Shown here: in pieces, positions 15,491 to 49,436 of the stretch
Position numbering within the stretch: the stretch's first letter is position 1
How the letters are laid out: each line of letters opens with the position of its first letter
NCBI GenBank assembly: GCA_017465885.1
Contig: JAFTVG010000002.1
Coordinates: 30,726-94,725 of the forward strand
Length of the DNA: 64,000 bases
Origin: Clostridia bacterium
GTDB lineage: Bacteria > Bacillota > Clostridia > Oscillospirales > CAG-272
Direction of reading: 5' to 3'
The notes under the pieces: model-generated
What the model saw: only the letters and a program-made list of their open reading frames with translations
What the model was told of the DNA's origin: nothing
Database searches by the model: none
Position numbers and translations under genes: made by a program

Positions 15491-15629
15491 ATCACGAAGC
15501 TCCTTTCTGTTCGTTTTGAATTGTCCTTCACCCATATAAACACTCTTTTTTTCTTTTGGTTGCATCTTTACGTAAAAAGCCTTGAATCTTTTCTCTGTTA
15601 TTCTTAACGGAGAAATGGCAGACACATAA

Positions 15630-15673
15630 AAATTGGCAGAGACATTGTTTTCTCTGCCAATTTGTGTTATAAT
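15630..15673 (+). promoter_or_regulatory. Cassette 1 promoter within a 13-bp inverted repeat
   Basis: A perfect inverted repeat (AAATTGGCAGAGA at 15630-15642 and TCTCTGCCAATTT at 15651-15663, 8-base loop) overlaps a promoter: TTGTTT (15645-15650), 17-bp spacer, TATAAT (15668-15673). The spacer text TCTCTGCC.ATTTGT recurs in the second cassette. The left arm of the inverted repeat does not. Confidence 0.65.
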
Positions 15674-15909
15674 AGGGCTATAGGAACGCCTCCCTCCGAG
15701 AGGGAGGGGGACCGCGTTAGCGGTGGAAGGAGCCTGCATGACTTTAGGTTTGCACTAACTTCATTGTAACGCGCTCTCCCTCAGTCGCCTACGGCGCCAG
15801 CTCCCTCCCGGAGGGAGTCTTTGGGTGCTCGCAACCTTAGGGGTATGGGCTTTGCCCGAAGTCGGCGTTGCTTGCAACGCTGTAATACAAAGGCAAAACT
15901 GGCGGTAAA
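15651..15909 (+). repeat. Palindromic leader repeat, copy 1
   Basis: About 250 bp, closely matching 48710-48959. Contents in order: the promoter spacer and TATAATAGGGCTA; a CTCCCTCCGAGAGGGAGG palindrome; GCGTTAGCGGTGGAAGGAGCCTG; GCGCTCTCCCTCAGTC and a short hairpin (GCCTACGGC); CTCCCTCCCGGAGGGAG; a GGGCTTTGCCC hairpin; and AATACAAAGGC.AAACTGGCG.TAAA just before the cargo gene. As RNA it would be heavily folded. GAGGGAG-type palindromes are familiar to me from gut Clostridia intergenic regions, but I cannot name a family. Confidence 0.85.
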
Positions 15910-15945
15910 ACGGAACGATAAATAAGAATCTTACGGGGCTTCAAT

Positions 15946-16806
15946 ATGATAAAAATAATTGATACATATTCGCAAATTGAAATCTTGTTTGATAACGGAA
16001 ATTTCGACATAGAAAAATGGGAATTATATATTAACTCCATTTATGATAAATCTGCAAGTATTTTCAAGGATGACTTAAGGGATTGTTTGGATAACGGGAA
16101 CTATGTCTATGAAAAAGATATATTGCCGATTCTCAATGCTGTGTATAAAAATCCTCAATTAGAAACCTTGTATTCCTCATTTTGCGATATTACAGACTGC
16201 TTGAATGAAAAAATTCTTGATCGCTTTGAGTGTGAGTTGAACGTTGACATAGTCTTGTATGTTGGTCTTTGTAATGCCGCAGGGTGGGTAACCACTATAA
16301 ATGGGAGAGATGTAGTATTGTTGGGGATAGAAAAAATTCTTGAACTAAATTGGTGCGATCTATCTTCAATGTATGGACTGGTTTATCACGAATTGGGGCA
16401 TATATATCACAAACAATATGGTATGTTTCATCAATTGAGCGATAATAACGCTCGCAATTGCGTTTGGCAGTTGTTTACAGAGGGAATAGCAATGTGTTTC
16501 GAACAAGCCTTGGTTAATGACTCTAACTATTACCATCAAAATAAAGACGGTTGGTTGGAGTGGTGCAATAATCATTATGAGCAAATATTAGCAGATTTTC
16601 ATTCCGATTTGCCAACGATGACAAAATCAAATCAACACTATTTTGGGGATTGGGTAAGTTATCACGGAAAAGGAGATGTTGGATATTACCTTGGAACAAG
16701 ATTTGTTCAACAATTATGTGGTAAATACGCCATAGAACAATTAATTCGTATGGATATCGATGATATATACCAAGAATATTTGGGCTTTATCGAGGTGCAA
16801 TCGTGA
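15946..16806 (+). CDS. Cargo 1: putative HExxH zinc metallopeptidase
   Basis: 286 residues, strongly AT-rich unlike all flanking genes, which indicates horizontal origin. The motif YHELGHIYHKQ near residue 149 is an HExxH zinc site. LFTEGIAMCFEQ about 30 residues later supplies a glutamate that could be the third zinc ligand, giving a gluzincin arrangement like that of the DUF2268-type predicted proteases. There is no signal peptide and no membrane segment, so it is probably cytoplasmic. The ribosome-binding site is weak (CGGGGCTTCAAT before ATG). Substrate unknown. Carried as the only gene between conserved cassette ends; a role as an accessory or defence gene is only a guess. Confidence 0.8.
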   Translation: MIKIIDTYSQIEILFDNGNFDIEKWELYINSIYDKSASIFKDDLRDCLDNGNYVYEKDILPILNAVYKNPQLETLYSSFCDITDCLNEKILDRFECELNVDIVLYVGLCNAAGWVTTINGRDVVLLGIEKILELNWCDLSSMYGLVYHELGHIYHKQYGMFHQLSDNNARNCVWQLFTEGIAMCFEQALVNDSNYYHQNKDGWLEWCNNHYEQILADFHSDLPTMTKSNQHYFGDWVSYHGKGDVGYYLGTRFVQQLCGKYAIEQLIRMDIDDIYQEYLGFIEVQS

Positions 16807-16834
16807 CTGACAAACGACAATTCATCGAATAGTG

Positions 16835-16867
16835 AACGCCGACAGACATTAAAAATCTGTCGGCGTT
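16835..16867 (+). terminator. Cassette 1 terminator
   Basis: A perfect 12-bp stem (AACGCCGACAGA with TCTGTCGGCGTT, 9-base loop) follows the cargo stop. Its inner 8 bp (CCGACAGA/TCTGTCGG) are identical to the terminator of cassette 2. Only a weak T-rich stretch follows. Confidence 0.75.
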
Positions 16868-16924
16868 AATATTTGTCTACTGCGGAGCAAATCTGCGTCG
16901 TATGAACAATAATTTTATGAGAAC

Positions 16925-16949
16925 GTGATTTCTCCGCTAAGAACATCAC
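16925..16949 (+). repeat. Right-end hairpin, copy 1
   Basis: A 25-nt element, 24 of 25 bases identical to 49437-49461; the single difference is in the loop. It folds as GTGAT plus TTCT pairing with AGAA, one bulged C, and ATCAC, with a 6-base loop. It marks the right limit of similarity between the cassettes. Beyond it lies ordinary spacer before the VanY/amidase stop at 16991. Confidence 0.75.
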
Positions 16950-16990
16950 ACATTTTGATCCAAGGCTTTTATATGTTTTTCAAAAGTAGT

Positions 16991-18970
16991 TTATCCTGCA
17001 ATGGGATACTGCGCCATAATGGCAGAGGCGATGGCATTTGCCATACCTGCACACCACTCTGCGGTAATCGCCTTTTCGGCGTCTGCCTGATTGGTAAGGA
17101 AGCAGGTCTCCACCAGAATGGAGGGCATATCGGTGTGGGTCAGCACGGCGTATTCTGCGGTTGAGGGCGAAACGGTGGTGGCAGAGCATCCGCCCGTGCC
17201 GTTGATCGCTCCGCAAAGGGCGCGGCTGAGCGCCAGGCATTCCTCCACCCTTTCGTGCTCGGCGTAGTGGTAGACTCTTGCTCCCTTTGCCGTGCCGTCG
17301 GTAAAGGAGTTGGCGTGGATGGATACGAAGAGGTCGGCGCCTGCGTCGTTTGCTTCTTCTGCCCGCTTTGAAACGGTCACGTGCTCTTTTCTGTAGCCAT
17401 CGCGGGTCAGCAGGACGGTGTAGCCCGCTTTCTTTAAAATGGCAGACACGCGGGAGGTGATCTCCATATTCAGGTCTGCCTCGTAAAGTCCGCCCGACAG
17501 GGTGAAAAAGGGAGTGCCCGTACCGGTGCCCACGTCGGCAACGCCCTGGCTGTTGTCACAGCCGTGGCCGGCATCCAGCCATACAGTGGGCGCACCGTCC
17601 TTTAAGGACACGGTCACCTGCACCGTTTTTTCAAAGCCGCCCTCGGCGGTTTTTACGGTGATAATGGCGCTACCCTCAGCCACGCCCTTCAGCACGCCAA
17701 GGGGGGATACGGTGACCACTTGTTCATTGGAGGAGGCAAAGGTCAGTCCCTTGTTGGTGGCGTTTGCAGGGGTAACTGCGGCGTTTAAGGTGAGGCGCTC
17801 GCCCTTTTGCAGGCTGACGGCGCTTTGCTCTAAGGTCAAGCCCGTTACGGCGATCTTGGGTGCTTCATCGGTAAGGGGACCCTCCCACACCGATTTGACG
17901 GCGACGATGAAGCCGTCCTTGTTGTTGCCCGAAAGCTCGTAGACCACGCCCTGAGGCAGGATCACGGTGGTGTTGCCCTCCGCGGAGGCGGCAACGTAGT
18001 AAACGCTCCAGGAATATCCGTTGCCGTCGGTAACCACCAGACGGTCGTTGGGCGTGTACTTTTTGATCTCTTCCAGATATTCCTCAAGACAGAGGTTCTT
18101 TTGATACATATAGGAGGCGTGAGCGATGCCCACGTAACGGAAGTGGTCGGCATCGGCATCCTTGCCCGTTACGCCGCTCTTGTCCTTGGTATACCGCTCG
18201 ATGATGCCGAAGCGGTGGGCGTTTCTCTTTAACCACAGGCTTTCGCTCGCCACCGCGTCAAGCCCTACGGTGTAAGAACCCGTGCCGTCCCAGAACTTGA
18301 CGTCCAGGGCAAGACCCGTGTGATGCTCGCTGAATCCGGGGGTGTCGGTTTTGAAATCGGGGTTGCTTTCGTTCTTTTCGATCAGATCCTTATAGTAAGC
18401 CTCGTCTCTGAAGGCAGAGCGCACCAACAGCGATTTGGTGGTCAGCGTTTCCTTTTGCAGGGTAAGGATCATCTTTTCAAACGCCGAAAGGGTCTCAGAG
18501 GTCACCTGGTGCATAAATTCGGAAACGGCAAGAACGCCCGTGCCCTGCGTCTTGATGATCTTCAGATCCTTGGTCAATAAGGAGGCGTAGCCGTTTTTCT
18601 CATCCACCAGCACCAGGCTTCCCTTGGAAAGATCCTCCGTCTTTTTGGTCACCGAGGTCACCCCGTTGGGCTTCAGGTCAAAATCCGGGTCTCTTGGATC
18701 CTCGGAGGGGGTAGGGGTCGGCGTGGGCGTGGGCTCGGGAGAGGGTAAAACGGGGGAGAGAGAGGGCGATGCTTCGGAGGGAAGGATGGGCGGTGCTGAG
18801 GGCGAGGGGGTCGAGGGCATCTGCACGCTCGGCTCTTTTGAGGAAAAGGGAGAGCTGAGCGAGGGTTCGCCGTTGCTTTCAAGAGGCGGCTTTTTGGCGC
18901 ACGCAGCCAAAAGGGTGAGGCAGGTGATCAGAGCAAGAAGCAGGCTGATCGCTTTCAGGATTGTTTTCAT
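16991..18970 (-). CDS. Lipoprotein with VanY-type carboxypeptidase, Ig-like and amidase_3 domains
   Basis: 659-residue bifunctional peptidoglycan hydrolase. The lipobox LAAC gives lipidated Cys24, followed by a long Pro/Ser/Glu linker to ~100. Residues ~110-300 are a VanY-like D,D-carboxypeptidase: SEHHTGLALD (S214 to D223; predicted zinc ligands His216 and Asp223) and DADHFRYVG (His276). The usual catalytic Glu of EPWHFRYVG is replaced by Asp273. Residues ~373-455 are a Big_2-type Ig fold. Residues ~460-655 are N-acetylmuramoyl-L-alanine amidase (amidase_3): DAGHG (His469), YEADLN (Glu497), SIHANS (His552) and VETCFLTN (Glu), all four key residues present. It would act on wall stem peptides outside the membrane. 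First gene in the minus-strand run of envelope lipoproteins. Confidence 0.9.
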   Translation of the reverse strand: MKTILKAISLLLALITCLTLLAACAKKPPLESNGEPSLSSPFSSKEPSVQMPSTPSPSAPPILPSEASPSLSPVLPSPEPTPTPTPTPSEDPRDPDFDLKPNGVTSVTKKTEDLSKGSLVLVDEKNGYASLLTKDLKIIKTQGTGVLAVSEFMHQVTSETLSAFEKMILTLQKETLTTKSLLVRSAFRDEAYYKDLIEKNESNPDFKTDTPGFSEHHTGLALDVKFWDGTGSYTVGLDAVASESLWLKRNAHRFGIIERYTKDKSGVTGKDADADHFRYVGIAHASYMYQKNLCLEEYLEEIKKYTPNDRLVVTDGNGYSWSVYYVAASAEGNTTVILPQGVVYELSGNNKDGFIVAVKSVWEGPLTDEAPKIAVTGLTLEQSAVSLQKGERLTLNAAVTPANATNKGLTFASSNEQVVTVSPLGVLKGVAEGSAIITVKTAEGGFEKTVQVTVSLKDGAPTVWLDAGHGCDNSQGVADVGTGTGTPFFTLSGGLYEADLNMEITSRVSAILKKAGYTVLLTRDGYRKEHVTVSKRAEEANDAGADLFVSIHANSFTDGTAKGARVYHYAEHERVEECLALSRALCGAINGTGGCSATTVSPSTAEYAVLTHTDMPSILVETCFLTNQADAEKAITAEWCAGMANAIASAIMAQYPIAG

Positions 18971-23835: not shown

Positions 23836-23861
23836 CGGCGTGCCCTCGGGCACGCCGTGCT
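23836..23861. terminator. Shared terminator between convergent genes
   Basis: An 11-bp stem (CACGGCGTGCC with GGCACGCCGTG) is followed on the minus strand by TTTTTCG, giving a good terminator for the minus-strand peptidase gene. The plus side has only CTTGTGCTTTT. Confidence 0.8.
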
Positions 23862-23871
23862 TGTGCTTTTA

Positions 23872-26286
23872 TTAACCTGCGATGGTTACGAAGGTGAAGG
23901 ATGCGGCGGAGGCGCCGGTCTCAGCATTGAGAACCTTTACCAGATAATCGCCTGCAGCGGTCACGTCAACGGTAGCGGTGAAGGTGGTGGAAGCGTCAGC
24001 TTCAACGGTCTTCACAACGTTACCCTCCAGGTCGGTAACAACGATGCTCAGCTTGGTTACCTTCTTTGCAACGGTACCGGTAACGGTCAGACCGTCAGCA
24101 GAAACTGCAACGGAGGAGGTTACCTGAGGAGCTGCATCGGGAGTGAACTTCCACTTCATATCGTCGGTGAGAGCGGTTGCCTTCTTCAGGCAGATCACGC
24201 CGTCAACCTCAGCCAGAGCGTAGTTGGTGCCCTTTGCGGAGGTGATGTACATGGTGATGGTGCCGTCCTCGTTGTGAGACAGCTTCCAGTTCTGGGTGGT
24301 TGCGCGGTTCTGAGCGATCTCGGGGTTGGAGCTCTCAGCGTTGAACTGAGGAGTTGCACCGGAGGTCAGAGTCTTTACGATATCCAGAACGTAGGTGGGG
24401 TTCTTTGCACCCTTCTCGATCTTCCAGAACAGGTAGCTCTGTTTTGCGGGGCTGTAAGCCACGTTCATCATCAGAGCGTCGGAAGCCTTGGAGGAGGGCT
24501 TGAAGGTCATAGAGCCGTCAGCTGCCAGATAGTTGCCCGAAGCGGCGTTCTGCAGAGTGTAGTCGCCTGCCAGAGTGCCGTATGCGGTCTTGCCGCCCAG
24601 CTCGAAGACGTAGGTGTTGTTTGCCTTGAGCAGAGTTTCGTTCTGGAACTTCACGCTCTTGACCACGTCACCGTTACCCTTCTTGATCACGATGCTCTTT
24701 ACGTTTACGGTGTCGGTATCAGGATTGTCGCTCTTGGAGGAAACCTTGATGGACCACTTGAAGTTTTCCATGGTGGATCCCTCGGGGATGGAGCTCATCA
24801 GTCTTTCGAAGCTTACGGTGTAGAATGCGGTGGTTGCCTTGCCGTTTGCTTCGCCCTTGGTGTTGAAGTAGAAGTCGTCGTCAGCGCCAAGGCCTGCCTC
24901 TTCCTTGGTTACCATGGAAGGACGGTTGCCGTAGTAGTAGAACAGATAGGGGGTAGCGCCTACGTATCTGCCGTAAGCGTCGGTTCTGCCCAGCTCTACG
25001 TTGAGCTGAGCGCGGTCGGTCGTCTCGATCTCCAGCTCAGCGTACATAGCGGGCTTTTCGGTGGTAACGTCGCGGTCCCAGTAGATGAAGCAGAACTGGT
25101 CAAGTGCCCAGTCTCTGGTCTCGGTGGGAGCGATCTTGAAGTCTTCAACTTCGGAAATGGTGTTGACTGCGTCGTACATCATCCATACGTAACCCTTGTC
25201 GTTCTTGGTGGGCCAAGTGGTGCCGTAGGAGTTCTGAATGAGGAATGCGCCCTTCAGGGTCTGGTCGGAGCCGGGAACCTCAACGGTCAGGTTGTCGTCG
25301 TAACCAACGATTGCAACCTGGTGTCCGCCGCCCTTTTCGGTGGTGTAGGAAGCGTGGGTGATAACGGTCTGACCCTTCTTTGCCAAAGAGCCGGCAGTCT
25401 TGATGGTCTCGGTCTTCCACATAGAGGGATAGCCGCCGGTAACGACAACGTTACCCTGAGCAACTGCGTCCTTGATCTTGGCAAGCAGTTCCTGGCCGGC
25501 CTCGGAGGTGGTGAACTGAACGCCGATGGTCTTGCCGTCCTCGGTCTTATCCTTGTTCCAGTAAAGACCGTCGGTAGCGGTTACCCAGTACTGCTCGTGG
25601 TTGGTGAGTCTGTAGGCAAGAGCCTTCTCACCGAAGCCCTGATCCAGCACCCAACCGGTGGTCTGGGTCTGATACTTGCCGTTCTTGAAGATCACGGAAG
25701 CCTTGCTGGTGCTTCTTGCGAACATATCGTCGTCAACGGTAACGGCACCGTGGTCACGCAGGAAGTAGTAAACTGCGCTGGTGGACGCACCTGCGAACTG
25801 GAAGGACCACTTGGGGGAGAAGCAGGATTCGAATGCGGTTGCAGGCTTCCATGCGCTGTCGGGATTCAGCTTCTTAGCGTACTGAGCGGCAGCGTTGGTG
25901 AACTGCAGATAGGTGATAGCCTGAGAAGCGCAGGAGCCGATCTCGCCCTGGTTGTCAACGGGGGGCAGGAAGTCGGTGCCTACCAGAGTGAAGCTCTCGG
26001 GAAGGGTGTCCAGAGGCTTGTGCTCTGCGGGCTTGCTTGCGGGATAGTTCACAGAGGTGAAGATGTCGTTGGGCGTGCCCTGACCGTCGTCGTCAGTCAC
26101 TTCGTCAACAACAGGCTTATTCGAGGGCTTGTTGTCTTCGCCCTTGGATTCATCGCCTCCTTGTGCGGGGGAAGAGGGGGTCTGGGTGTTGTCGGTGGTG
26201 TCGTTGCCGCCTTTGTTACATGCAGCAAGGGCAAGCGCAGAAACACACATCAGCAATGCCAGAACGATTGCGAGAAAACGTTTCAA
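23872..26286 (-). CDS. C1 (papain-like) peptidase lipoprotein, paralogue 1
   Basis: 804 residues, surface anchored (lipobox LAAC, lipidated Cys23, then an Asp/Lys/Ser linker). The C1 core shows DNQGEIGSCASQA (oxyanion Gln113, nucleophile Cys119), GGGHQVAIVGYDDN (His) and LIQNSYGTTW (Asn), so the catalytic set is complete. The spacing is much longer than in plant papain, and no propeptide is evident. From ~500 to ~710 is a beta-trefoil-like region (GDYTLQNAASGNYLAADG, YVLDI and QNWKL, a ricin-B pattern). The last ~90 residues form an Ig-like domain. Closest in the window to paralogue 4 in the His block. It has its own promoter at 26335-26363. Confidence 0.88.
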   Translation of the reverse strand: MKRFLAIVLALLMCVSALALAACNKGGNDTTDNTQTPSSPAQGGDESKGEDNKPSNKPVVDEVTDDDGQGTPNDIFTSVNYPASKPAEHKPLDTLPESFTLVGTDFLPPVDNQGEIGSCASQAITYLQFTNAAAQYAKKLNPDSAWKPATAFESCFSPKWSFQFAGASTSAVYYFLRDHGAVTVDDDMFARSTSKASVIFKNGKYQTQTTGWVLDQGFGEKALAYRLTNHEQYWVTATDGLYWNKDKTEDGKTIGVQFTTSEAGQELLAKIKDAVAQGNVVVTGGYPSMWKTETIKTAGSLAKKGQTVITHASYTTEKGGGHQVAIVGYDDNLTVEVPGSDQTLKGAFLIQNSYGTTWPTKNDKGYVWMMYDAVNTISEVEDFKIAPTETRDWALDQFCFIYWDRDVTTEKPAMYAELEIETTDRAQLNVELGRTDAYGRYVGATPYLFYYYGNRPSMVTKEEAGLGADDDFYFNTKGEANGKATTAFYTVSFERLMSSIPEGSTMENFKWSIKVSSKSDNPDTDTVNVKSIVIKKGNGDVVKSVKFQNETLLKANNTYVFELGGKTAYGTLAGDYTLQNAASGNYLAADGSMTFKPSSKASDALMMNVAYSPAKQSYLFWKIEKGAKNPTYVLDIVKTLTSGATPQFNAESSNPEIAQNRATTQNWKLSHNEDGTITMYITSAKGTNYALAEVDGVICLKKATALTDDMKWKFTPDAAPQVTSSVAVSADGLTVTGTVAKKVTKLSIVVTDLEGNVVKTVEADASTTFTATVDVTAAGDYLVKVLNAETGASAASFTFVTIAG

Positions 26287-26334
26287 TGTTTTGTACCTCC
26301 AAAAAAATGTATACTCCCATAATGGGTCGCTATT

Positions 26335-26363
26335 AGTATAGTGCTTTTTTTCAAAAAAGTCAA
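26335..26363 (-). promoter_or_regulatory. Sigma-A promoter of C1 peptidase paralogue 1
   Basis: TTGACT (26363-26358), 17-bp spacer, TATACT (26340-26335), about 50 bp before the start codon with GGAGG between. Confidence 0.82.
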
Positions 26364-26443
26364 GGGGGCAGAAACAAAGTACACAAAATATTTATAATTC
26401 CCTTGCGTAATTGCACTCTTTTTTCCTTTTGCTGGAAAAAGAT

Positions 26444-26480
26444 CCCCGTCTTTTTCAGCTTGTTGCCGAAAAAGACGGGG
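26444..26480 (-). terminator. Terminator after C1 peptidase paralogue 2
   Basis: A perfect 13-bp stem (CCCCGTCTTTTTC with GAAAAAGACGGGG, 11-base loop) in the spacer downstream of paralogue 2; on the minus strand it is followed by ATCTTTTTCC. Confidence 0.8.
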
Positions 26481-26531
26481 CTTGCTTTCCTTTGGTTTCC
26501 AAAAGGAAGAATGTTTTTGGTTTTTCGGAGC

Positions 26532-29231
26532 TTATCCGATACGCAGCGCCACTCTGTTGCCCAGGCAAACGCCCTTCGCCTCAAGACAGATCAGGTAGTC
26601 CCCTTTCTCCAGCGTGCAGGAGAAGGTCAGGGTTTGCCCCTGGGACTTACCGGTCAGGGTCTTTACCGTTTTGCCGTCCTTGACCACCAGCAGGCTCAGT
26701 TCCTCTGCTTGATAGTCCGCAGGAAGGGAGACTGCAGCGTCAAAGCCGTCCTTAGCGGGGGTCAGATCCAGATAGCGGGCTGTCTTGGTGGTGACCTTTG
26801 CAATGAAGCGGTAGCTTGGGTCGGAGGGATCCTTGCCCAGGGTGAAGTCCTTGCCGTCAAAGCCGATATAGAGGGAGGGATCTGCCTTGCTTGCGATGGA
26901 AATGGTGGCATCCTCGTTTTGGATCACCGTCCACGCCTGCGCCGTTCTCTGGGGGGACTGGGCGTTCATTTTCACCAGCACCCCTTCCTTCAGCTCCTTG
27001 CCGTGGATGTCGAAAACGTAGTTCATGGTGCCGTGGCGGAAGAGATATGCGCCGGATGCGGCGTCGTATTCCACGCGGAAGACCGAGCGCTCCACCGAGT
27101 CGTCCTTCTTTTCGTTTTGCCATTCAAAGAGCATATTGTTGCTCTTGAGCGACAGTGTCTTTTTCTGACCCACGTTATAGAAGGTATAGCTTCCCGAGCC
27201 GAAATGGGCACCCAGCTCGCCGTTTTGTCTGAATTCAAAGATCTTGGGCGCTCCCTTTTCGATAGTGCGGTCCTTTTCTGCGGGGATGACCTTGCACAGC
27301 TCCTTGCCGTTTTCGTCAAGTAATCTCAAGCTGAGCACCTCGGTCCCGCCGCCGCGGATGCGCACGCCCCAGACGAAGTCGTCGTAATCTGCGGCAGAGC
27401 CAAAGTCATCCAGCACGTGGTATCCGAAGGTGAAATAGCCGATCTCTTCCTTGGTGGGCTGGGATTTGCCCGAGAAGGAGGTCTGTCCCACCTGATTGAG
27501 CTCGGGCAGGAAGTTTTTGTTTAAGGGCACGTCGGTGCAGGCGGGGGTGTATTCCAGGGTGTTGCCGTTTTTGTCGGTACGGGTGAGCACGAACGCCAGA
27601 TCGTCTCTGCCTGCCTTGCTTACCTTCGCCTCCACCATCAGCGTGGGCGTGCCGATCTGAATATCCTCGTCCCAGTAAAGGAAGCTGAAGCGGTAGAAGG
27701 TGCCGGTGCGCTTATAGCCCGTTCCGCTGCTCTTTGAAACGCACACGCGGGAAAGGAAGGCGCCTTCCTTTTTGTCTGCCGAAAGATCGAAGCAGACCTT
27801 GTCCATATTGCCGTCGGCGGTTTTATAGAAACGGAGGGAGGCGTGGTTGCCGTTGATCTCTGTTCCGAAATATCCCTTGATGCCGTTGCCCGACACCACA
27901 GCCAGCAGATAACCGCCGCTGTAGTCCTCGTCGTGGGGGGGATTTGCGGCATCCTCATAAGGAATCAGGGCAAGCTCTGCGGCGTTGCCCGCGTGACCGG
28001 AGGAGAAGGTGGTGCCGTTTAAAACCAGGGCACAGCCGTTTTGCTCGTCGGTGATGGTATAAAGGGGCAACTCCTTGCCCTTGTGGGTCAGGGTCTTTCC
28101 CGTGGGGGTAAAGGTGAGCATCTGGTTGTGCTCTGCCTGATAGCCGAATTCAAATTCGTTGCCCTCAAGGGAGAGGGCGGCGTTGTTCAGATAGAAATCG
28201 GGATCGTTGAAGATCTGGTTTTCCGATACCTGGTTGAAGGCGTCGTACATCACGTAGTAGATCTCTCTGTTGTCGTTGGCATAGGAGTCTCTGATCTGGA
28301 AGGCGCCCTTTAAGGTCACGCCTGCCTTGGTTACGGTGATGTTATCGTCATATCCGATGATGGAGACGCAGTGGTTTCCGCTGGAGCCCTCGCCCGAAAC
28401 GTAGGTCATACCTGTCCACGCCACCGATTCTCCTGCAATGCCGATGGCGCCCTTACCCTCTTCGGTGAGCTTTTCGTTGGTCAGATAGTAGGGCCAGCCG
28501 CAGATGGTCACCGAATTGCCTCGTGCCAGCGCTTCCTTGATCTTGTAAAGGAGATCCTGTCCCCGCTGATCGGTGGTCAGCTGACCTGCGTGGCTGACCG
28601 AAAATTCCACCTCTTCAAAGTCGGTGATGCGGTATTTCAGCGCCTTTTCCATCAGTCCCTTGGCTACGTCCCAGGAACGGGATTTCTCTTGGTTGAGCCC
28701 TGAGGCATTCTGGAAGAGCTGGGAGGGCTTTCTCTCACTTTTGTAGAAGGAGGAAAGGCTCATGGGCAGGCATCCGTGGTCCTTGAGGACGGTGTAGCAG
28801 TATTCGGTGCTGGGACCTGCAAAGTTATAGGTGAATTTGGGAGAAAAGATATACTTGTCGTCGCCCGAGGAGGGATCCCAGTCGGTGTCGGGATCATTTG
28901 CGTGGATGAACTGGGAGACTGCCACGGTAAATTGGGTGTAGGTCACGCCCTCGGAGGTACAGCTGCCGATGGATCCCTGATGGTCGGGGATGGGCAGATG
29001 CTTGGTGCCGTAAAGGGTGGCGTGGGTAGGCAGCTCCATCCGCTCCTCTTCGGAAGAGGAGGGGGCGTCGGGAGAGGTGGGTGTGGGCGTTTCGCTGTCG
29101 GTGCCGAGCGAAGGGGAGGAGGGAAGGACGGGCTCGGTCGTCTTTTCCGCCTTCGTACAGCAAGAGAGCAAAAGGGAGGAGGACAGCATCAGTATTGCCG
29201 TCAGAAGAGCGAGGATGCGTTTGATGTTCAT
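26532..29231 (-). CDS. C1-like peptidase lipoprotein, paralogue 2, catalytic Asn replaced by Asp
   Basis: 899 residues. Signal peptide with LLSC lipobox (Cys24), then a Ser/Pro/Thr linker. Papain-like core: DHQGSIGSCTSEG (Gln85, Cys91) and GNHCVSIIGYDDN (His). The block that should read NSxG is IRDSYAND, so the catalytic Asn is Asp (codon GAC, checked on the DNA) and the usual glycine is missing. Activity may be reduced or altered. The C-terminal half contains a beta-trefoil-like domain (YTFYNVGQKKTLSLKSNN, YVFDIHG, AQAWTVIQ) and a final Ig-like segment. Its domain order and sequence resemble paralogue 3. murI lies directly upstream. Confidence 0.87.
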   Translation of the reverse strand: MNIKRILALLTAILMLSSSLLLSCCTKAEKTTEPVLPSSPSLGTDSETPTPTSPDAPSSSEEERMELPTHATLYGTKHLPIPDHQGSIGSCTSEGVTYTQFTVAVSQFIHANDPDTDWDPSSGDDKYIFSPKFTYNFAGPSTEYCYTVLKDHGCLPMSLSSFYKSERKPSQLFQNASGLNQEKSRSWDVAKGLMEKALKYRITDFEEVEFSVSHAGQLTTDQRGQDLLYKIKEALARGNSVTICGWPYYLTNEKLTEEGKGAIGIAGESVAWTGMTYVSGEGSSGNHCVSIIGYDDNITVTKAGVTLKGAFQIRDSYANDNREIYYVMYDAFNQVSENQIFNDPDFYLNNAALSLEGNEFEFGYQAEHNQMLTFTPTGKTLTHKGKELPLYTITDEQNGCALVLNGTTFSSGHAGNAAELALIPYEDAANPPHDEDYSGGYLLAVVSGNGIKGYFGTEINGNHASLRFYKTADGNMDKVCFDLSADKKEGAFLSRVCVSKSSGTGYKRTGTFYRFSFLYWDEDIQIGTPTLMVEAKVSKAGRDDLAFVLTRTDKNGNTLEYTPACTDVPLNKNFLPELNQVGQTSFSGKSQPTKEEIGYFTFGYHVLDDFGSAADYDDFVWGVRIRGGGTEVLSLRLLDENGKELCKVIPAEKDRTIEKGAPKIFEFRQNGELGAHFGSGSYTFYNVGQKKTLSLKSNNMLFEWQNEKKDDSVERSVFRVEYDAASGAYLFRHGTMNYVFDIHGKELKEGVLVKMNAQSPQRTAQAWTVIQNEDATISIASKADPSLYIGFDGKDFTLGKDPSDPSYRFIAKVTTKTARYLDLTPAKDGFDAAVSLPADYQAEELSLLVVKDGKTVKTLTGKSQGQTLTFSCTLEKGDYLICLEAKGVCLGNRVALRIG

Positions 29232-29270
29232 ATTCGTGTTCGCTTTCGGATTCAGATTTGTTTTGATCGT

Positions 29271-30062
29271 TCAGATGCTTTTGAAAAAGCGCTCCATTGT
29301 GAAAAGGGCTTGCCCATCCTGCTTGCTGCTCAGGAACCTCACGCCGCCGGCGTTTTCTTTCGGAGCGCAAAGCCCCTCTTCGCACAGCCTTTTTTCAAGC
29401 TGTCGTGCCGTGCCCTCGGCGCCGTCGAAAAAGGCGGTATCCTCGGGAAAAAAGCGCTTTAACAGAGGCTTGATGAAGGGATAGTGGGTACAGCCCAGCA
29501 CCACGGCTTTCGGGGGATTTTTCAGATGGGGAGCAAGAAGCTCTTGCAGAAAGGCGCAAAGCATTTCTTGGTCGTCAAGCCCCTGCTCGATCAGCTCCAC
29601 CAGCCCCGGACAGGGCAGGGTGACGAACTCGGCAAGGTCGGACAGCTCCTTTTCAAGAGTCTTGAATTTGTCCATCTTCAAAGTCATCGGCGTTGCCATA
29701 ATGAGCACCGTGGGGTGCTTCCCACAAAGTGCGGCGGGACGGATGGCAGGCTCCACCCCCAGTATAGGCAGATCCTCGTGCTCTGCGCGCAGGACCTCTG
29801 CCGCCGCCGCGGTGGCGGTGTTGCAGGCAATGACCACTGCCTTCACGTCAAAGGAGAGCAGCTTGTTTAAGGCGCTCCGGCTGAGAGAGAGGATCTCCTC
29901 CCTGCTTTTTACGCCGTAGGGAGCGTTGGCGCTGTCGCCGTAATAGATGAACCTTTCGTTTGGCAGACGCTGCACCAGCGCCTTGAGCACGCTGATGCCG
30001 CCTACCCCCGAATCAAAGACGCCGATGGGTCTTGAGTCGGTGTTGGTGTGCCCGATGTGCAA
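29271..30062 (-). CDS. murI: Glutamate racemase
   Basis: Cofactor-independent racemase making D-glutamate for peptidoglycan. 263 residues. Conserved IGVFDSGVGGISVLK, FIYYGDSANAPYG, catalytic Cys80 in IACNTATAAAA and the second catalytic Cys in VLGCTHYPFI. The start is TTG at 30062, placed by an AAAGGAGGTG eight bases upstream. It lies between two large peptidase paralogues, 39 bp from the one downstream, so the duplicated peptidase genes have grown around an essential wall gene. Confidence 0.95.
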   Translation of the reverse strand: MHIGHTNTDSRPIGVFDSGVGGISVLKALVQRLPNERFIYYGDSANAPYGVKSREEILSLSRSALNKLLSFDVKAVVIACNTATAAAAEVLRAEHEDLPILGVEPAIRPAALCGKHPTVLIMATPMTLKMDKFKTLEKELSDLAEFVTLPCPGLVELIEQGLDDQEMLCAFLQELLAPHLKNPPKAVVLGCTHYPFIKPLLKRFFPEDTAFFDGAEGTARQLEKRLCEEGLCAPKENAGGVRFLSSKQDGQALFTMERFFKSI

Positions 30063-30110
30063 TCAAGGCACCTCCTTTCGGGAATGGCGTTGGAATGGGT
30101 AAAATGCTTT

Positions 30111-30137
30111 GCGGGGCTGCCTGAAGGGCAGCCCCGC
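30111..30137 (-). terminator. Probable terminator after C1 peptidase paralogue 3
   Basis: An 11-bp GC stem (GCGGGGCTGCC with GGCAGCCCCGC) just past the stop. The minus-strand trailer AAAGCATTTTA is only moderately T-rich. Confidence 0.6.
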
Positions 30138-30152
30138 AGGGTCGATCATAGA

Positions 30153-32855
30153 TTAAGAAACGGTGTAAATGGTTTGAGTGCCCATTACCTGTCCGTTATA
30201 GTACATTGTGAACAGGTAGGTGCCCTTTTCCAGGGTCACGGTGTCGGTCATCACCTTGTTTTCCGCTTCCTTGGTGATGGTTGCCACCACCTGGCCGTCC
30301 TTGACGATCTTCACGTCTAAAGCGCCGCCCTCGTAGTCCTTGGTGACCTTTGCCTTCACGGTCACGGAGGTGCCGTCGCTGGTCACGTCCAGATTGATGT
30401 CGGAGGTCTCCACCGGCTCAAGAACCCAAAGGAAGTTCTTGTCGTCTGACTTCTTGATGCAGAAGTCCTTGTCGTAGCCGAAGGCGTACTCGCTGTTTTC
30501 CTTCAGAGTGATGCGCAGATAGCCGTCTGCCGTGCGGGTCACCACCCACTTCTGTGCGGGTCTGGAGGCGCTTGCGGCGTTCATCAGGACCTTCACGCCG
30601 TCGGCGTACTCTGTGCCGTGGATGTCAAAAACGTGCTCCTTATAGCTTGCGAAGGTGTAGAAGTCGCCCTGCTTATCGTATTTGATGGTGAAGGCGGCTC
30701 TTTCCTCGTTGGCCTTCTTTCCGTCAAACCACTCGAAGAGCATATTGTTGGACTTCAGACCCAGCACCTTGCCGGTGCCCACGTTCTTGAGTCTGTAGGT
30801 ACCGGTGCCGAAATAGGTATCCAGTTCCTTTCCCGCATCGAAGACGAAGGAATGGATCACGCCCTTTTCAAGAGGTCCTGCAGAGCTGTCGGGAACGACC
30901 GAGAACAGCTCCTTGCCCTGCTCGTCAAGCAGGCGCAGACCCTTGATGGTCACGCCCGAGCCTCTGACGGTCACGCCCCAGAGGAAATCCTCGTAAGAGA
31001 AGTCGGAGTTGAAGCCGCACAGGGTGTCGTAAGAGAAGACGAAATAGCCTTCCTCAGCCTCGGTGGGGTCGACCTTGCCGGAGAAGGAGAAGCCGGTGCC
31101 CTCGGGGAACTCCTCAACAGTACCGGGCTTGACGCCCTGTCTGTAGCGAAGCTCCATGGATGCGGGAGAGAAGGTGTCCTGCACGCCGTTCTTGTCGGTT
31201 CTGTTGAGTGCCATATAGAGATTGCTTCTGTCGGTTGCCGAAACATGCACCTCGACTGAGAGGCGGGAGGGACCGACCACGATGTCCTCGTCCCAGTAGG
31301 TGAAGCTGAAGCGGTAAAGGGTGCCGGTGCGGTCGTTGCCCACTCCGGTGGGAACGGTGTTGATCATATCCGCGAACACGCCGGTCTCTTTGTCGGCGGC
31401 GTCGGTGTTGATCTTCAGGCAGGCGTATGCTTTCTTGGTTTCGGGCTTTTCGATGAGTCCTGCCTTTGCGCCTGCGTTGCCGCCGGTGAAGGCGAAGTAG
31501 CGCAGGGGGCTGTTGCCGTTGTTAACGGCATAGAGATACTCGGTGCCTGCGTAATCGCCGCTCTGCTTGCTGTCAAGCACGGCGAAATGACAGCTTTCGT
31601 CAGCCTGTGCCACCAGAGTCAGCTCACCCTTGGCGTTGTAGCTCAAGAACTCGCCGTCCTCGTTGGAGAGGGTGTAAACGGTGCACTTCTGACCGTTGAC
31701 CTCCTGCTCGGTGGCAACGGGGGTAAAGGTCATCTGTACGCTGCCCTTGTTCTTTAAGGGGGTCACTGCCTTCAGGGTGGAGGGCTCCAGAGTCACGCAG
31801 TTGTCGTAGTAGTCGGGATCGTTGAAGATGTCAAATTCGGATTCCACGTTGCAGGCATCGTATGCCAGCCAGATGTAGCCCTTCTGACCGTAGCCGGTAC
31901 CCCAGGAGTTCATGACCTGGAAGGCACCCTTCAAGGTGATGCCGCCGCGGGTGATGGTGATGTCGTCGTCGTAGCCTACGATTGCAACGCAGTGGTTGCC
32001 GTCGGAGGTGGAGTCTTCTCTCTTATAGCCGTTCCAGATGATCTGGTCGCCGCGCTTACCCAGCGTACCCAGACCGTCTCTGTCAAGCACGTCGGTCTGC
32101 CAATAGGAGGACCATCCGCAGATGGCAACGGCGTTGCCTCTTACAACGGCGTCCTTCACCTTTTGCAGAAGCTCCAGACCCTGCTCGTTGGTGGTCAGCT
32201 TGCCTGCGTTGGTGGAGGTGAATTCGATCTCCTCGTAGTTGGTGATGCGGTAGTTGAGCGCCGCCAGCATCAGATCGGGGGAGGAAACGTCCCAGCCTCT
32301 GGACAGATCGGAATTCAAGATCGAACCGCCCCAGCTGCCGTCGGCAGCCATAGGCGTTTTGTCAAAGGAGGACATGCTCATGGGCAGGCATCCGTTGTCT
32401 CTGAGCACCTGATAGCAGATGTCGGTACCGGAGCCCGAATAGTTGTAGGTGAACTTGGGGGAGAAGATGTAGGAGGGATTGCCGGAGGAAGGATTCCACT
32501 TGGAATCGGGGTCCTTGCTGTTGATATACTGAGAAACGGCGATGGTGAACTGTGCGTAGGTCACGCCCTCAGAGGTACAGCATCCGATGCTTCCCTGGCT
32601 GTCGATGACGGGCATATGCTTGGTGCCCACCAGCGAAGAAGAGGAGGGAAGGGGGTCGGGCTCGGGCTCGGGAGAGACCGAGGGAGAGGGAGACTCGCTC
32701 TTCTCGTCCTCGGATACGGAAGGAAGGGTGCTTTCAACCGATGCCGAAGGGGAGCTTACGGTGTCGTCGGTGGTTGCGGGGGGAGTTTTGGTGCAGGCTG
32801 CAAAAACGCCCGTCACCATTAAAAGCGCCAGAATAAGGGTAAGAACTCTTTTCAA
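30153..32855 (-). CDS. C1 peptidase lipoprotein, paralogue 3
   Basis: 900 residues, the same length as paralogue 2. Lipobox FAAC (Cys21), linker rich in Ser/Pro/Glu. Catalytic set complete: DSQGSIGCCTSEG (Gln87; nucleophile Cys93 of a CC pair), GNHCVAIVGYDDD (His) and MNSWGTGYGQKGY (Asn). Three blocks follow as in paralogue 2: a beta-rich middle, a trefoil-like region (YRLKNVGTGKVLGLKSNN, VFDIHG, AQKWVVTR) and a terminal Ig-like domain. It is upstream of murI and paralogue 2 on the same strand. A secreted surface protease or adhesin is the likely role; the substrate is unknown. Confidence 0.88.
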   Translation of the reverse strand: MKRVLTLILALLMVTGVFAACTKTPPATTDDTVSSPSASVESTLPSVSEDEKSESPSPSVSPEPEPDPLPSSSSLVGTKHMPVIDSQGSIGCCTSEGVTYAQFTIAVSQYINSKDPDSKWNPSSGNPSYIFSPKFTYNYSGSGTDICYQVLRDNGCLPMSMSSFDKTPMAADGSWGGSILNSDLSRGWDVSSPDLMLAALNYRITNYEEIEFTSTNAGKLTTNEQGLELLQKVKDAVVRGNAVAICGWSSYWQTDVLDRDGLGTLGKRGDQIIWNGYKREDSTSDGNHCVAIVGYDDDITITRGGITLKGAFQVMNSWGTGYGQKGYIWLAYDACNVESEFDIFNDPDYYDNCVTLEPSTLKAVTPLKNKGSVQMTFTPVATEQEVNGQKCTVYTLSNEDGEFLSYNAKGELTLVAQADESCHFAVLDSKQSGDYAGTEYLYAVNNGNSPLRYFAFTGGNAGAKAGLIEKPETKKAYACLKINTDAADKETGVFADMINTVPTGVGNDRTGTLYRFSFTYWDEDIVVGPSRLSVEVHVSATDRSNLYMALNRTDKNGVQDTFSPASMELRYRQGVKPGTVEEFPEGTGFSFSGKVDPTEAEEGYFVFSYDTLCGFNSDFSYEDFLWGVTVRGSGVTIKGLRLLDEQGKELFSVVPDSSAGPLEKGVIHSFVFDAGKELDTYFGTGTYRLKNVGTGKVLGLKSNNMLFEWFDGKKANEERAAFTIKYDKQGDFYTFASYKEHVFDIHGTEYADGVKVLMNAASASRPAQKWVVTRTADGYLRITLKENSEYAFGYDKDFCIKKSDDKNFLWVLEPVETSDINLDVTSDGTSVTVKAKVTKDYEGGALDVKIVKDGQVVATITKEAENKVMTDTVTLEKGTYLFTMYYNGQVMGTQTIYTVS

Positions 32856-32940
32856 AACGGTGATCCTCCTGTGTTTTGTTTGATGTTTGTTTTAAGGTGA
32901 GCAGGGGCGTATGCCGCCCCTCGGCAGAAGAAATGAATTG

Positions 32941-34773
32941 TCAGATCTTGAAAACGATCTCGTTTGCGCCCTTGCCTTCGGCAAGAACGGTCTTGGAGGC
33001 ATCCAGCAGGCTTGCCTCAACCAGCTGCGCCTTGCCCTTTCTGCCCTTCTTTAAGCGGATGCCCCACTCAAAGTCGGCAAAGGTCTTGCCCTTGGGCAGC
33101 TTCAACAGTGCATCCAGGGGGAAGGCGAAGTAGCCGGTGGTCACGCCGCCGTTCTTTACGCCCTCAAAGTTCAGGTATTCGCCCTTTGCCTTGTTGCAGA
33201 AGGTGGGATGATATTCTGCGTAGCGGAACATGGCGGGAAGGTAGGTCTTTGCCTGTGCCTTGCCCTTTTCCTTTCTGGTCAGGATGAGCTTGAAGCAGTC
33301 GCGGTCGTTGGCGTTGACCGTCGCCTTTACGTAGTAGGCGGGCATACCCACGTTCATATCCTTTTCCCAGTTGAGGAACGCAAACTGGTCGAATACCCAG
33401 TTTCTTGCCGACTCGATGTCCTTGCCTGCGGTGATGGACAGCTTGGCGGTGAATTCCTCAGCAGGCTCAGCCGAAAGCTCCCAGGACTTTGCGGCGGGGT
33501 ACTTACCGCCGTTGTGGGTGGCGATGTTCACCTTTCTGCCCGAGCTGGAGAAGCCCAGACCCGCATCCAGCATCTTGAAGCCGTATTCGCTTCCTTCCTT
33601 GTCCACGGTGTATACCCACACGCTCTTTTCAAATTCTTCTTTTCTGTGCTCTGCCTCAGCCTTGTCCCAAGCCATAATGTCGGCGTAGGGCAGGAGGGCG
33701 TAGCGGCAGCCCTCGTTTTCGTCGGTCAGATAAAGACTTCTGTCCGCGGCGTCCTTCTTGTAGCAGAGATACTTTCTGCTGGCGTCGTCCTGAATGGTGT
33801 AGGCTGTATATTCCTTGCCTTGGATGGTGACCTTGCCGTCAGCCTTGAAGTCTAACAGCTGGTTTGCGGTGGCAAGAGAGCCGGGAAACATACTCATACC
33901 CTGCGCGGGAGTGAGGGACATTCTGCCCGAATAGAGCTTGGGGTTGTTTAACTCGGGGAAGGCGGATACGGTATTGAGGGCGTCGTACATTGCCCAGGTA
34001 AGACCGCCGTTCATCCAGCCCTCGCCATAGGAGTTGGCGATGAGGAAGGCACCTCTCATCTTCACGCCCGCAAAGGTGGTGGTCACCTCGTCGTCGTATC
34101 CGATGATGGCGACCTGATGTCCGCCGCCCGCATTGCCCGAAGCGGCAACGATGGTATTTTCGCCCACCTTGCCGATGCTTCCGCAGCCGTCGAGCTTGTT
34201 GTAGATCCATCTGGAGGGATAACCGCCGGTAACCACGGCGTCGCCCCGCAGGACTGCCAGCTTGATCTTTTCAAGCAGAGCCAGACCAAGCTCGGAGGTG
34301 GTCAGTCTTTCGTGATAGGGCTCACCCTCAAACCATACCCGCTCATAGCCGCTGATACGGTTTTCCATCGCCTTTTCCATCAGTCCCTCGGTTGCCGCGG
34401 GGGAACGGGTGGTGTCGATATAGAGATTTCCGTCCTTGTCCTTGGCTCTGTGACCGCCCCGCTCGTCCTTGGAGAAGGCGCAGTCGTCGGTGAAGACGCA
34501 TCCGTGCTCCATCAGGGTCTCGTACACCCAAACGGTGCCCGCACCCGACAGGGTGAAGGTGAACTTGGGCGCGAAGCACTGATTCTTATCGTCTCTGGGA
34601 GAGAAGGTGCTGTCGGGATCAAGCTTGTGCAGATGGCGGGAGTAGGCGTTGGAGAACTGCGTTCTGGAGATCGCCTGGGAGGCACAGGAGCCGATGGCAC
34701 CCTGATTGTCGATAGAGGGACAGTGGGTGGTGCCCCACAGGGTGGCGTAGGAGGGAAGTACTGTTTTTTTCAT
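32941..34773 (-). CDS. C1 peptidase paralogue 4, without signal peptide or C-terminal domains
   Basis: 610 residues. The start MKKTVLPSYATLWGTTHCPS leads directly into the catalytic domain with no hydrophobic leader and no lipobox, unlike the other three. AAAGG lies at a suitable distance before the ATG. Catalytic residues are intact: DNQGAIGSC (Gln24, Cys30), GGGHQVAIIGYDDE (His) and IANSYGEGW (Asn). After the core there is a shortened beta-rich region and no final Ig-like domain. It is either cytoplasmic, exported by another route, or the product of a truncated duplication. It has its own promoter at 34854-34882. A GC hairpin (32903-32921) lies after its stop. Confidence 0.86.
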   Translation of the reverse strand: MKKTVLPSYATLWGTTHCPSIDNQGAIGSCASQAISRTQFSNAYSRHLHKLDPDSTFSPRDDKNQCFAPKFTFTLSGAGTVWVYETLMEHGCVFTDDCAFSKDERGGHRAKDKDGNLYIDTTRSPAATEGLMEKAMENRISGYERVWFEGEPYHERLTTSELGLALLEKIKLAVLRGDAVVTGGYPSRWIYNKLDGCGSIGKVGENTIVAASGNAGGGHQVAIIGYDDEVTTTFAGVKMRGAFLIANSYGEGWMNGGLTWAMYDALNTVSAFPELNNPKLYSGRMSLTPAQGMSMFPGSLATANQLLDFKADGKVTIQGKEYTAYTIQDDASRKYLCYKKDAADRSLYLTDENEGCRYALLPYADIMAWDKAEAEHRKEEFEKSVWVYTVDKEGSEYGFKMLDAGLGFSSSGRKVNIATHNGGKYPAAKSWELSAEPAEEFTAKLSITAGKDIESARNWVFDQFAFLNWEKDMNVGMPAYYVKATVNANDRDCFKLILTRKEKGKAQAKTYLPAMFRYAEYHPTFCNKAKGEYLNFEGVKNGGVTTGYFAFPLDALLKLPKGKTFADFEWGIRLKKGRKGKAQLVEASLLDASKTVLAEGKGANEIVFKI

Positions 34774-48471: not shown

Positions 48472-48498
48472 TCTATACCGAAAAAACGCCGAGGTGCT

Positions 48499-48703
48499 TG
48501 GCGTGATACTCTTAACGGAGTATCACGCCAGTTCTATTCGCCTCTCGGCGAGTTCTATTGCTTCGCAGTGATATTCGGCTTACGCTGAGTGATATTCGCT
48601 TCGCGAGTTTGGGATGCGAATAGAATATCACTGAAGCCGCAAGGCTTCAATATAACTATCGCGTCAGCGATAATATCACTCCGACAAAGTCGGAATATAA
48701 CTC
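48499..48703. repeat. Array of short hairpins spaced by ATATCACT-like linkers
   Basis: It begins with a perfect 13-bp hairpin (TGGCGTGATACTC with GAGTATCACGCCA, loop TTAACG). Then follow small GC hairpins such as TCGCC/GGCGA, TCGGC/GCTGA, TCGC/GCGA, GAAGCC/GGCTTC, TATCGC/GCGATA and CCGAC/GTCGG, separated by ATATCACT, ATATAACT or AGTGATATT. A larger fold pairs AGTGATATTCG with CGAATAGAATATCACT across the middle. It lies directly before the promoter of cassette 2. Units differ in the stems, so it is not a CRISPR array. Confidence 0.75.
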
Positions 48704-48732
48704 TTATTTTCTCTGCCGATTTGTAGTATAAT
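48704..48732 (+). promoter_or_regulatory. Cassette 2 promoter
   Basis: TTATTT (48704-48709), 17-bp spacer containing CTCTGCCGATTTGT, TATAAT (48727-48732). Spacer and -10 match cassette 1. Confidence 0.7.
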
Positions 48733-48959
48733 AGGGCTAACGCGGTCCCCCTCCCTCCGAGAGGGAGGGGGACCGCGTTAGCGGTGGAAGGAGCCTGCGT
48801 GACCTTGGGGTTGTGCTAACTTTATTATAACGCGCTCTCCCTCAGTCAGCTTCGCTGACAGCTCCCTCCCGGAGGGAGCCTATTGAAGCGTTCGCACAAC
48901 TTTTAGGAGTATGGGCTTTGCCCGCAGCCTTGTAATACAAAGGCGAAACTGGCGATAAA
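48710..48959 (+). repeat. Palindromic leader repeat, copy 2
   Basis: About 250 bp matching 15651-15909. The first palindrome is extended here to an 18-bp perfect arm (AACGCGGTCCCCCTCCCT and its complement around CCGAG). The second small hairpin is CAGCTTCGCTG in place of GCCTACGGC. The segment between the two GAGGGAG palindromes and the GGGCTTTGCCC...AATACAAAGGC tail are conserved. The tail stops about 10 bp before the cargo start. Confidence 0.85.
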
Positions 48960-48968
48960 GGAGATATT

Positions 48969-49346: not shown

Positions 49347-49352
49347 TAACAA

Positions 49353-49383
49353 ACCCCCGACAGATTTAAGGTCTGTCGGGGGT
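49353..49383 (+). terminator. Cassette 2 terminator
   Basis: A perfect 12-bp stem (ACCCCCGACAGA with TCTGTCGGGGGT, loop TTTAAGG), followed by ATCTCTTTGTTTT. The inner 8 bp equal those of cassette 1. Confidence 0.85.
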
Positions 49384-49436
49384 ATCTCTTTGTTTTATGT
49401 GGTTCAATTTTTATTATCCGTAGGAGCGTGTGTTGG

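Follow-up and report, generated by a model that had tools for sequence, protein, structure and literature searches.

Two gene-carrying elements lie in the window, i.e. the whole stretch of 64,000 nucleotides of contig JAFTVG010000002.1 analysed here, and both are inserted in the loops of intrinsic (Rho-independent) terminators of the host. The contig belongs to the Clostridia bacterium assembly GCA_017465885.1 (hereafter G000), a metagenome-assembled genome (MAG) of 1.92 Mb in 37 contigs, 80.6% complete. Copy 1 (15592-16952, 1361 bp) and copy 2 (48500-49464, 965 bp), both on the forward strand, are bounded by terminal inverted repeats (TIRs), and each is a cassette with an exchangeable, apparently foreign gene, belonging to a large family of such cassettes in gut Clostridia. 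We regard it as fairly probable that such a carrier, with TT at both junctions in the terminator loop, is a non-autonomous derivative of a REP-type tyrosine transposase (RAYT) element and is mobilised in trans. An initial annotation had seen fixed ends around exchangeable AT-rich cargo, a picture now carried by two empty sites, by a 2-nt repeat at 47 of 49 elements and by 119 cassettes in 89 cargo clusters; its bounds for copy 1, 15601-16949, are here replaced by those given above.

The right ends of both copies carry the 25-mer GTGATTTCTCCG[C/A]TAAGAACATCAC (at 16925 and 49437), with 24 of 25 bases equal, as already annotated. It had escaped notice that this sequence forms one half of a TIR and that the left end (TCTTAACGGAGAAAT at copy 1) supplies the other. 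The TIRs read TCTCTGTTATTCTTAACGGAG...CTCCGCTAAGAACATCACACA in copy 1 (left, TCTCTGTTATTCTTAACGGAGAAAT, 15592-15616; right, with the 25-nt hairpin, 16925-16952) and GGCGTGATACTCTTAACGGAG...CTCCGATAAGAACATCACCCA in copy 2 (left, a perfect hairpin GGCGTGATAC TCTTAACGGA GTATCACGCC, 48500-48529; right, 49437-49464). The shared ends are not due to chance, because the end pattern TTTCTCCGNTAAGA has 11 matches in G000 against none for the reversed control, and the 59 genomes of the family hold 92 matches to the c-class end (TTCTCATAAGGANGTTT, up to one mismatch), spread over 22 of them, where the control has 4.

Outside the ends, the flanks are complementary to each other and differ between the loci: AAAAAGCCTTGAATC (15574-15588) pairs with GATCCAAGGCTTTT (16957-16970) at copy 1, just downstream of an amidase gene on the reverse strand (16991-18970), and AAACGCCGAGGTGC (48484-48497) with GCACCTCGGTGTTT (49468-49481) at copy 2, beside a CDP-alcohol phosphatidyltransferase gene, also on the reverse strand (49507-50187). 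Each flank pair comprises an A-run, a GC-containing stem and a T-run, that is, a Rho-independent terminator split in two, likewise absent from the initial annotation. A TT stands at either junction (15590-15591 and 16953-16954 for copy 1; 48498-48499 and 49465-49466 for copy 2), making a direct repeat of 2 nt.

In G002, a genome of the same genus, the copy-1 site is empty: the locus (L234), traced through the adjacent amidase protein (78% identical), has the terminator intact, AAAAAGCCTTGAATC-TTTTT-GATCCAAGGCTTTTT, and reads ...TTTACGTAAAAAGCCTTGAATC TTTTT GATCCAAGGCTTTTTATATG... The filled site with its 2-nt repeat predicts an empty loop of five T, which is the loop observed. Cargo in place without the ends, a finding that the initial annotation had named as fatal to a cassette, is not what G002 has, since both cargo and ends are missing from its locus. 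A second element of G000 (L084), 369 bp long, gene-less and situated after the ribosomal protein S18 gene rpsR (named by eye), is missing in G002 as well; the flanks there are 98% identical on both sides and the terminator is CCCGTTGCCC TTTG GGGCAACGGG, one base different from the TTTT loop that the filled site predicts. For copy 2 no empty site was readable: the phosphatidyltransferase gene occurs in 5 of 5 genomes searched in the genus, own included, in differing surroundings.

Elements with both ends were recovered for 43 of 117 distinct instances of the leader motif, a conserved part of the family described below. With copy 1 added by hand, the resulting 44 elements have a mean flank-stem score of 12.0 vs 7.06 for 1892 mispaired flanks, and 57% of them reach 12 or more vs 1.1% of the mispaired ones. 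As the pairing of ends was partly chosen by the stem in this comparison, the trusted test is a stem-blind set of 49 nearest TIR pairs: 40 of their own flanks fold at -12 kcal/mol or better with the junction at the hairpin apex, vs 98 of 980 mispaired flanks. Loops in the 40 passing pairs measure 3 nt (12 pairs), 4 (17), 5 (5), 6 (3), 7 (2) or 10 nt (1). Flanking stems differ between loci, and the target is apparently defined by structure rather than by sequence.

The same dinucleotide flanks both element ends in 47 of the 49 (TT or its complement in 45, AT in one, TA in one); the offset was set by hand for each end class after viewing examples, and the other offsets from -4 to +4, which serve as control, give 0 to 10 of 49. 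A larger, earlier count gave 54 of 56, with 8 pairs of variant end cores left out. Among the 37 motif-oriented elements longer than 450 bp, the promoter-side dinucleotide is TT in 36 and AT in one, never AA. Two origins are conceivable for the repeat, duplication of the target or a TT that the element itself brings at its right end. L101 (AT/AT) and L154 (TA/TA) speak for duplication, although either dinucleotide is its own complement, and L259, with AA on the left and TT on the right, speaks for the TT brought along. The polarity of the oriented elements is not what a symmetric transposase should give; single-strand (HUH) insertion should give it, as should a recombinase that has a 2-bp core.

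Members of the family share one layout: a TIR, an optional Gut-1-like fold-back array or GTAG-type palindrome, a hairpin promoter (TCGGCAGAGA..TCTCTGCCGATTTGTGTTATAAT), a first slot, the leader motif (GGGGTATGGGCTTTGCCCGATGCCTTTGTAATACAAAGGCGAAACTGGCGATAA), the cargo, a terminator (CCCCGACAGA..TCTGTCGGGG) and the second TIR, the TIR cores being of two classes, TTCTTANCGGAG or TTCTCATAAGGA. Slot 1 is empty in some members; in others it is occupied by a palindrome of CTCCCTC or CTCTCCC type, by a RAYT gene, by a DUF559 gene (L100, L165) or by a gene for a 23S rRNA intervening-sequence protein (23S-IVP; L101), the last two lying between promoter and leader motif as the RAYT does. Over 44 aligned copies of equal length, which do not include copy 1, the leader motif has a mean column identity of 94%; its two helices are paired in 96.6% of cells and only one pair varies on both sides, a pairing pattern from which RNA and DNA roles cannot be told apart.

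In copy 1 the hairpin promoter (15633-15673; stem TTGGCAGAGA/TCTCTGCCAA, TATAAT at 15668-15673), of the kind that precedes RAYT genes in relatives, is followed by a CTCCCTC palindromic leader in slot 1 (15689-15820), a diverged leader motif with an extra hairpin (GGGGTATGGGC..GCCC..ACAAAGGCAAAACTGGCGGTAA, 15840-15908), the cargo (15946-16806) and the terminator (16837-16865). Copy 2 has its promoter at 48704-48732, its CTCCCTC leader at 48750-48881, its leader motif at 48905-48958, its cargo at 48969-49346 and its terminator at 49354-49382. The parts that the initial annotation had described as common to both mostly agree: the palindromic leaders are 89% identical over 132 nt, and the inner stem of the terminator, CCGACAGA/TCTGTCGG, is the same in both. 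As to the promoter, TATAATAGGGCTA is identical, whereas the 17-bp spacers, said to be the same text, are equal at 14 of 17 bases.

The fold-back array of copy 2 (48529-48600) matches Rfam Gut-1 (RF01706, typed as a small RNA) at 48.9 bits, below the gathering threshold of 50 (L010:589-660). Other arrays within elements match it too (L025:1284-1458, L006:1743-1814, L011:1190-1277 and L014:2076-2249), the best match overall scoring 55.8 bits and all others falling below gathering. In this setting Gut-1 seems to be part of a mobile element and not a small RNA gene in its own right; no paper on a Gut-1 RNA under that name was found in open-access full text.

The cargos of the two window copies are unrelated, as first proposed: a protein of 286 residues with an HELGH motif and one of 125 residues fall in different clusters, neither with a match in Pfam (E 0.001) or NCBIfam (E 1). 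The proposed contrast between AT-rich cargo and GC-rich host is found as well, with 34% (copy 1) and 33% (copy 2) GC vs 54% in 3 kb of flanking DNA per copy. In related MAGs, 164 motif instances divide into 8 gene-less ones (by the AGAGAGA test), 32 without an open reading frame (ORF) or at a contig end and 124 with an ORF; four of the latter, with no terminator found and at least 42% GC, were dropped, and one (L229) is copy 1 again, leaving 119 distinct cassettes, copy 2 being counted once (as L239). Cargo GC in these ranges from 27 to 45%, with a mean of 34%. Pfam assigns nine of the 89 cluster representatives to GNAT (PF00583), three to NUDIX, two to methyltransferases and two to MazG, among 25 of 68 families listed. 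Across 75 of the 89 representatives, with 60 of 63 family rows covered, the Pfam matches include no transposase or recombinase family. Defence genes were considered as cargo and discarded, since PADLOC yields a small number of weak matches, to 14 families with no more than 3 of the 89 members each.

Homologues of the copy-1 cargo occur in 18 further genomes of 394 searched in the order, with 37-68% protein identity, none of those without these ends lying at the copy-1 locus. The family thus exists outside cassettes, and the window copy was probably captured, because motif, promoter and TIR are absent from all 19 non-own homologue loci, whose fetched stretches were scanned whole. Copy 2, motif and cargo included, is 91% identical over 523 bp of DNA to a sheep-colon MAG (L120). 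In some pairs of relatives the same cargo stands in different surroundings. Between L081 and L165 identity is 97% over the 651 bp running from motif through cargo to tail and 92% over 235 bp of the left arm, with slot 1 unlike; L101 and L131 agree at 88% from the motif onward and have different left parts; and L138 and L260 have a common cargo and different TIR classes. Breakpoints at the leader motif suggest that recombination may take place there.

The family extends well beyond one genome. A 16-base motif core, with up to one mismatch, has 100 matches in 23 of 59 genomes (own included) vs 24 in 19 for the reversed control, and it occurs exactly in 14 of the 59. The exact cassette-type motif (ACAAAGGCGAAACTGGCGATAA) is found in at least 115 stretches of the GTDB genome set, which by title are MAGs of Clostridia, Clostridiales, Eubacteriales or Oscillospiraceae, plus one of Fibrobacter; the named sources are mostly gut (goat, sheep, deer, yak, buffalo or cattle). 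The contig filed under Fibrobacter (L197) is either misbinned or a transfer to another phylum. Spread by viruses was also considered and set aside, the exact motif having no match in viral contigs. At L005 (G000:C17 from 18022), a left end of the family is followed by an XRE-type regulator gene (named by eye), and the right end was not found. Paired ends without a gene, which at cargo-length spacing had been named as counting against a cassette, do occur (L264, L257, L262, L084, L109) and are shorter, from 78 bp (L264) to about 370 bp; they resemble forms of the family of the kind called miniature inverted-repeat transposable elements (MITEs), i.e. short, non-coding, bounded by TIRs and flanked by a target duplication, a description that does not apply to the copies with cargo.

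As to what moves them, a RAYT is the most likely candidate and a recombinase with a 2-bp core its main rival. A RAYT gene is present in 7 of the 44 motif elements with both ends, truncated in an eighth, and present also in L252; it is encoded between TIRs in L087, L107, L091, L097, L136, L183, L191 and L252, directly after the promoter and ending just before the motif. One and the same RAYT-GNAT element, at 95% identity over 1663 bp, is found in L087 (genome G006) and in L107 (genome G025), each time in another terminator. At L285, read by eye, TIR, promoter, RAYT, motif, terminator and TIR follow one another inside a split stem, with no cargo. One RAYT protein aligns with the solved structure of TnpArep, 4er8, over both catalytic motifs, HxH and YxxxNP (E 5e-8), and the model NF047646, named 'REP-associated tyrosine transposase', is hit by two such proteins (E 4.5e-18 and 8.5e-19) without its cut-off being reached. 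Of 30 RAYT loci among the matches listed, one near a contig end (L303) was left out; by loose criteria, the 29 testable ones comprise 20 with a promoter-like sequence, 14 with a TIR-like one and 12 with promoter, TIR and motif together. RAYT genes occur in 17 of the 22 genomes that have a c-class TIR and in 11 of the 37 that have none (Fisher p 5e-4, with no correction for kinship). Palindromes headed by GTAG, of REP/BIME type, are seen inside elements and, in frame, inside RAYT genes (L087, L107, L091, L184, L191, L257, L264).

Several observations weigh against this attribution, or against the terminator loop as general target. Nine of the 49 stem-blind pairs fail the apex-hairpin test. The Pfam model Y1_Tnp is matched below threshold (E 0.19 and 0.038); 15 of the 29 RAYT loci have no TIR even by loose criteria, and one of the 14 TIR matches (L301) looks spurious. 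Since slot 1 also holds DUF559 or 23S-IVP genes, the RAYT could itself be a passenger, and the GTAG-headed palindromes could be its true substrates. G000, as the incomplete MAG at hand, has no RAYT match, so that a partner must have been lost, have escaped assembly or reside in a different cell. The TnpAREP enzymes studied so far cleave beside CT, or beside CT and CA, the choice of dinucleotide depending on a guide sequence, and in one assay changing CT to TT abolished cutting by one of them (PMC8266576), which makes a TT-cutting RAYT a prediction; textbook IS200/IS605 elements have neither TIRs nor target duplications (PMC2817692, PMC7290912). Lastly, no movement was seen: insertion is what the loci display, and mobilisation by the RAYT is what we infer.

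The main rival is a trans-acting recombinase of non-RAYT type, for example one with a 2-bp core similar to serine recombinases or IS110-type enzymes, for which RAYT, DUF559 and 23S-IVP genes would all be slot-1 passengers. In its favour, a 2-bp crossover core would account for the polar TT at the two junctions, the ends are inverted repeats, unrelated sequences occupy slot 1 in different members, and G000 has many elements and no RAYT match. We nevertheless hold it to be rather unlikely: no such gene was recognised by eye in element ORFs or in the Pfam matches of the 75 cargo representatives, the target stems differ, so that a sequence-specific attachment site is hard to see, and the promoter also precedes a RAYT where there is no cargo, as at L285. 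More improbable by far is an ordinary DDE insertion sequence that makes a 2-bp target duplication, mobilises MITE-like relatives and reaches terminators through a preference for palindromic AT-rich DNA. TIRs and a short duplication are indeed typical of DDE elements, and IS30-like elements prefer palindromic targets; a symmetric transpososome, however, should give TT and AA equally, whereas all 37 oriented elements have TT (36) or AT (1), nor was a DDE gene recognised in the element ORFs or the same Pfam matches. That these are old, vertically inherited islands whose promoter and terminator were shared by duplication, with no insertion event, would suit a frame shared within one genome, and is next to inconceivable given the two empty sites, which refute it for copy 1 and the rpsR element, the presence of one element in different terminators of two genomes (L087, L107) and stems that differ between loci. 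A group II intron was also looked for and rejected, no intron family being found in Rfam (at the gathering threshold for the window, up to E 1 for 11 loci) and the ends being TIRs.

Under the preferred reading, a RAYT derivative mobilised in trans, the transposase is predicted to cut beside a TT dinucleotide, and one strand would be inserted at TT in the single-stranded loop of an extruded terminator hairpin. In the copies with cargo the RAYT was probably lost or replaced, cargo and left modules being likely exchanged through recombination in the conserved leader motif. The terminator of the element would likely take over from the split one, so that insertions would be cheap for the host; terminator-loop targeting, if true, would explain why many insertions are tolerated. 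A broader proposal, for and against which we see about equal odds, is a dispersed, integron-like shuffling in which a RAYT-type HUH transposase uses any terminator loop as a safe harbour defined by structure, with a constant frame of hairpin promoter, two-hairpin leader and terminator and with foreign genes and upstream modules swapped across gut Clostridia.

Some further features of the assembly were recorded. G000:C5 32549-33494 and G000:C8 29650-30767 are the same element with its flank on two contigs, so that the assembly is partly redundant, and several motif copies stand at contig ends, as repeats would. Elsewhere in the window, 23857-34773 holds large adjacent genes with repeats 61-82% identical between them, probably paralogues, and 62746-63100 a cluster of four tRNA genes.

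The initial annotation had recognised no described family, which has to be amended, for the frame resembles that of RAYT genes flanked by TIRs instead of GTAG repeats, named TIRYT, in units named TIRtrons (PMC3733652, PMC6006769). As in these, a RAYT-type HUH transposase gene lies between TIRs and more TIR copies lie elsewhere in the genome. TIRs in place of GTAG hairpins are found here; a Y1 HUH gene of RAYT type between them is found in the relatives and not in the window copies, which are at most derivatives. The consensus GGGGWSAS of many described TIRs (the largest group) is absent from both core classes, and other described TIRs lack it too (PMC3733652); an additional C-terminal domain marks the subclass to which 20 of 26 described TIRYTs were assigned (PMC3733652, PMC6006769). 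Unlike those units, the present ones have passenger genes and a terminator loop as target, neither being reported in the available text of the two papers (PMC3733652, PMC6006769). As far as the literature search reached, i.e. open-access full text without most subscription papers and without any preprints, no description was found of terminator-loop insertion or of RAYT-linked cassettes, and the two traits are to that extent unreported for RAYT/TIR elements.

With REPtrons, REPINs and BIMEs and their RAYTs (PMC2817692) the family shares a transposase homologous to TnpAREP, inverted repeats around the gene and, by prediction, cleavage beside a dinucleotide; it differs in that its ends are TIRs and not GTAG-headed hairpins, the GTAG palindromes being separate internal modules. 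Like IS200/IS605 elements, the present ones are inserted with one polarity, 3' of a short sequence that is nearly constant (36 of 37 have TT next to the promoter end, and one has AT), whereas the TIRs and the repeated dinucleotide (47 of 49) depart from that group, although a fixed TT at a right cleavage site borne by the element would give the same picture as a repeat.

Copies 1 and 2 of the window also fit the mobile insertion cassette (MIC), in which transposon ends enclose a passenger gene and no transposase gene, and of which MIC231 is reportedly an example. MICs are moved in trans by their cognate transposase, as the window copies would be under the preferred reading. Unlike MICs, the present units keep a whole expression frame constant (promoter, leader, terminator), have a very large diversity of cargo and use a structure as target. 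A MIC with a MITE has been described (PMC5444012). In the available text of a 2024 review of prokaryotic MITEs (PMC10969869), 'terminator' occurs four times, never as an insertion target, and 'cargo', 'passenger' and 'mobile insertion cassette' do not occur. The cassettes offer a concrete landing rule for a mobile element, the terminator loop, where structure and not sequence apparently defines the target. They also point to a candidate activity of RAYT transposases and to a stock of exchangeable single genes in gut Clostridia of which no description was found.

Integron cassettes are small, mostly single-gene units with a hairpin recombination site and a diverse, AT-rich cargo that includes GNAT, NUDIX and many unknowns. 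The present units would work in a similar way, being small, mostly single-gene, AT-rich, diverse and tied to a hairpin site; unlike integron cassettes, they are dispersed and have a promoter each. Group IIC introns prefer intrinsic-terminator sites, where they insert beside the hairpin and not in its loop, so that the kind of site is common to both systems and the point of insertion, the loop here, is not. A link between group IIC introns and integrons has been described (PMC7923331). If the reading given here is true, gut Clostridia would practise an integron-like gene swapping that is dispersed over the genome, at sites where insertion should do little harm.

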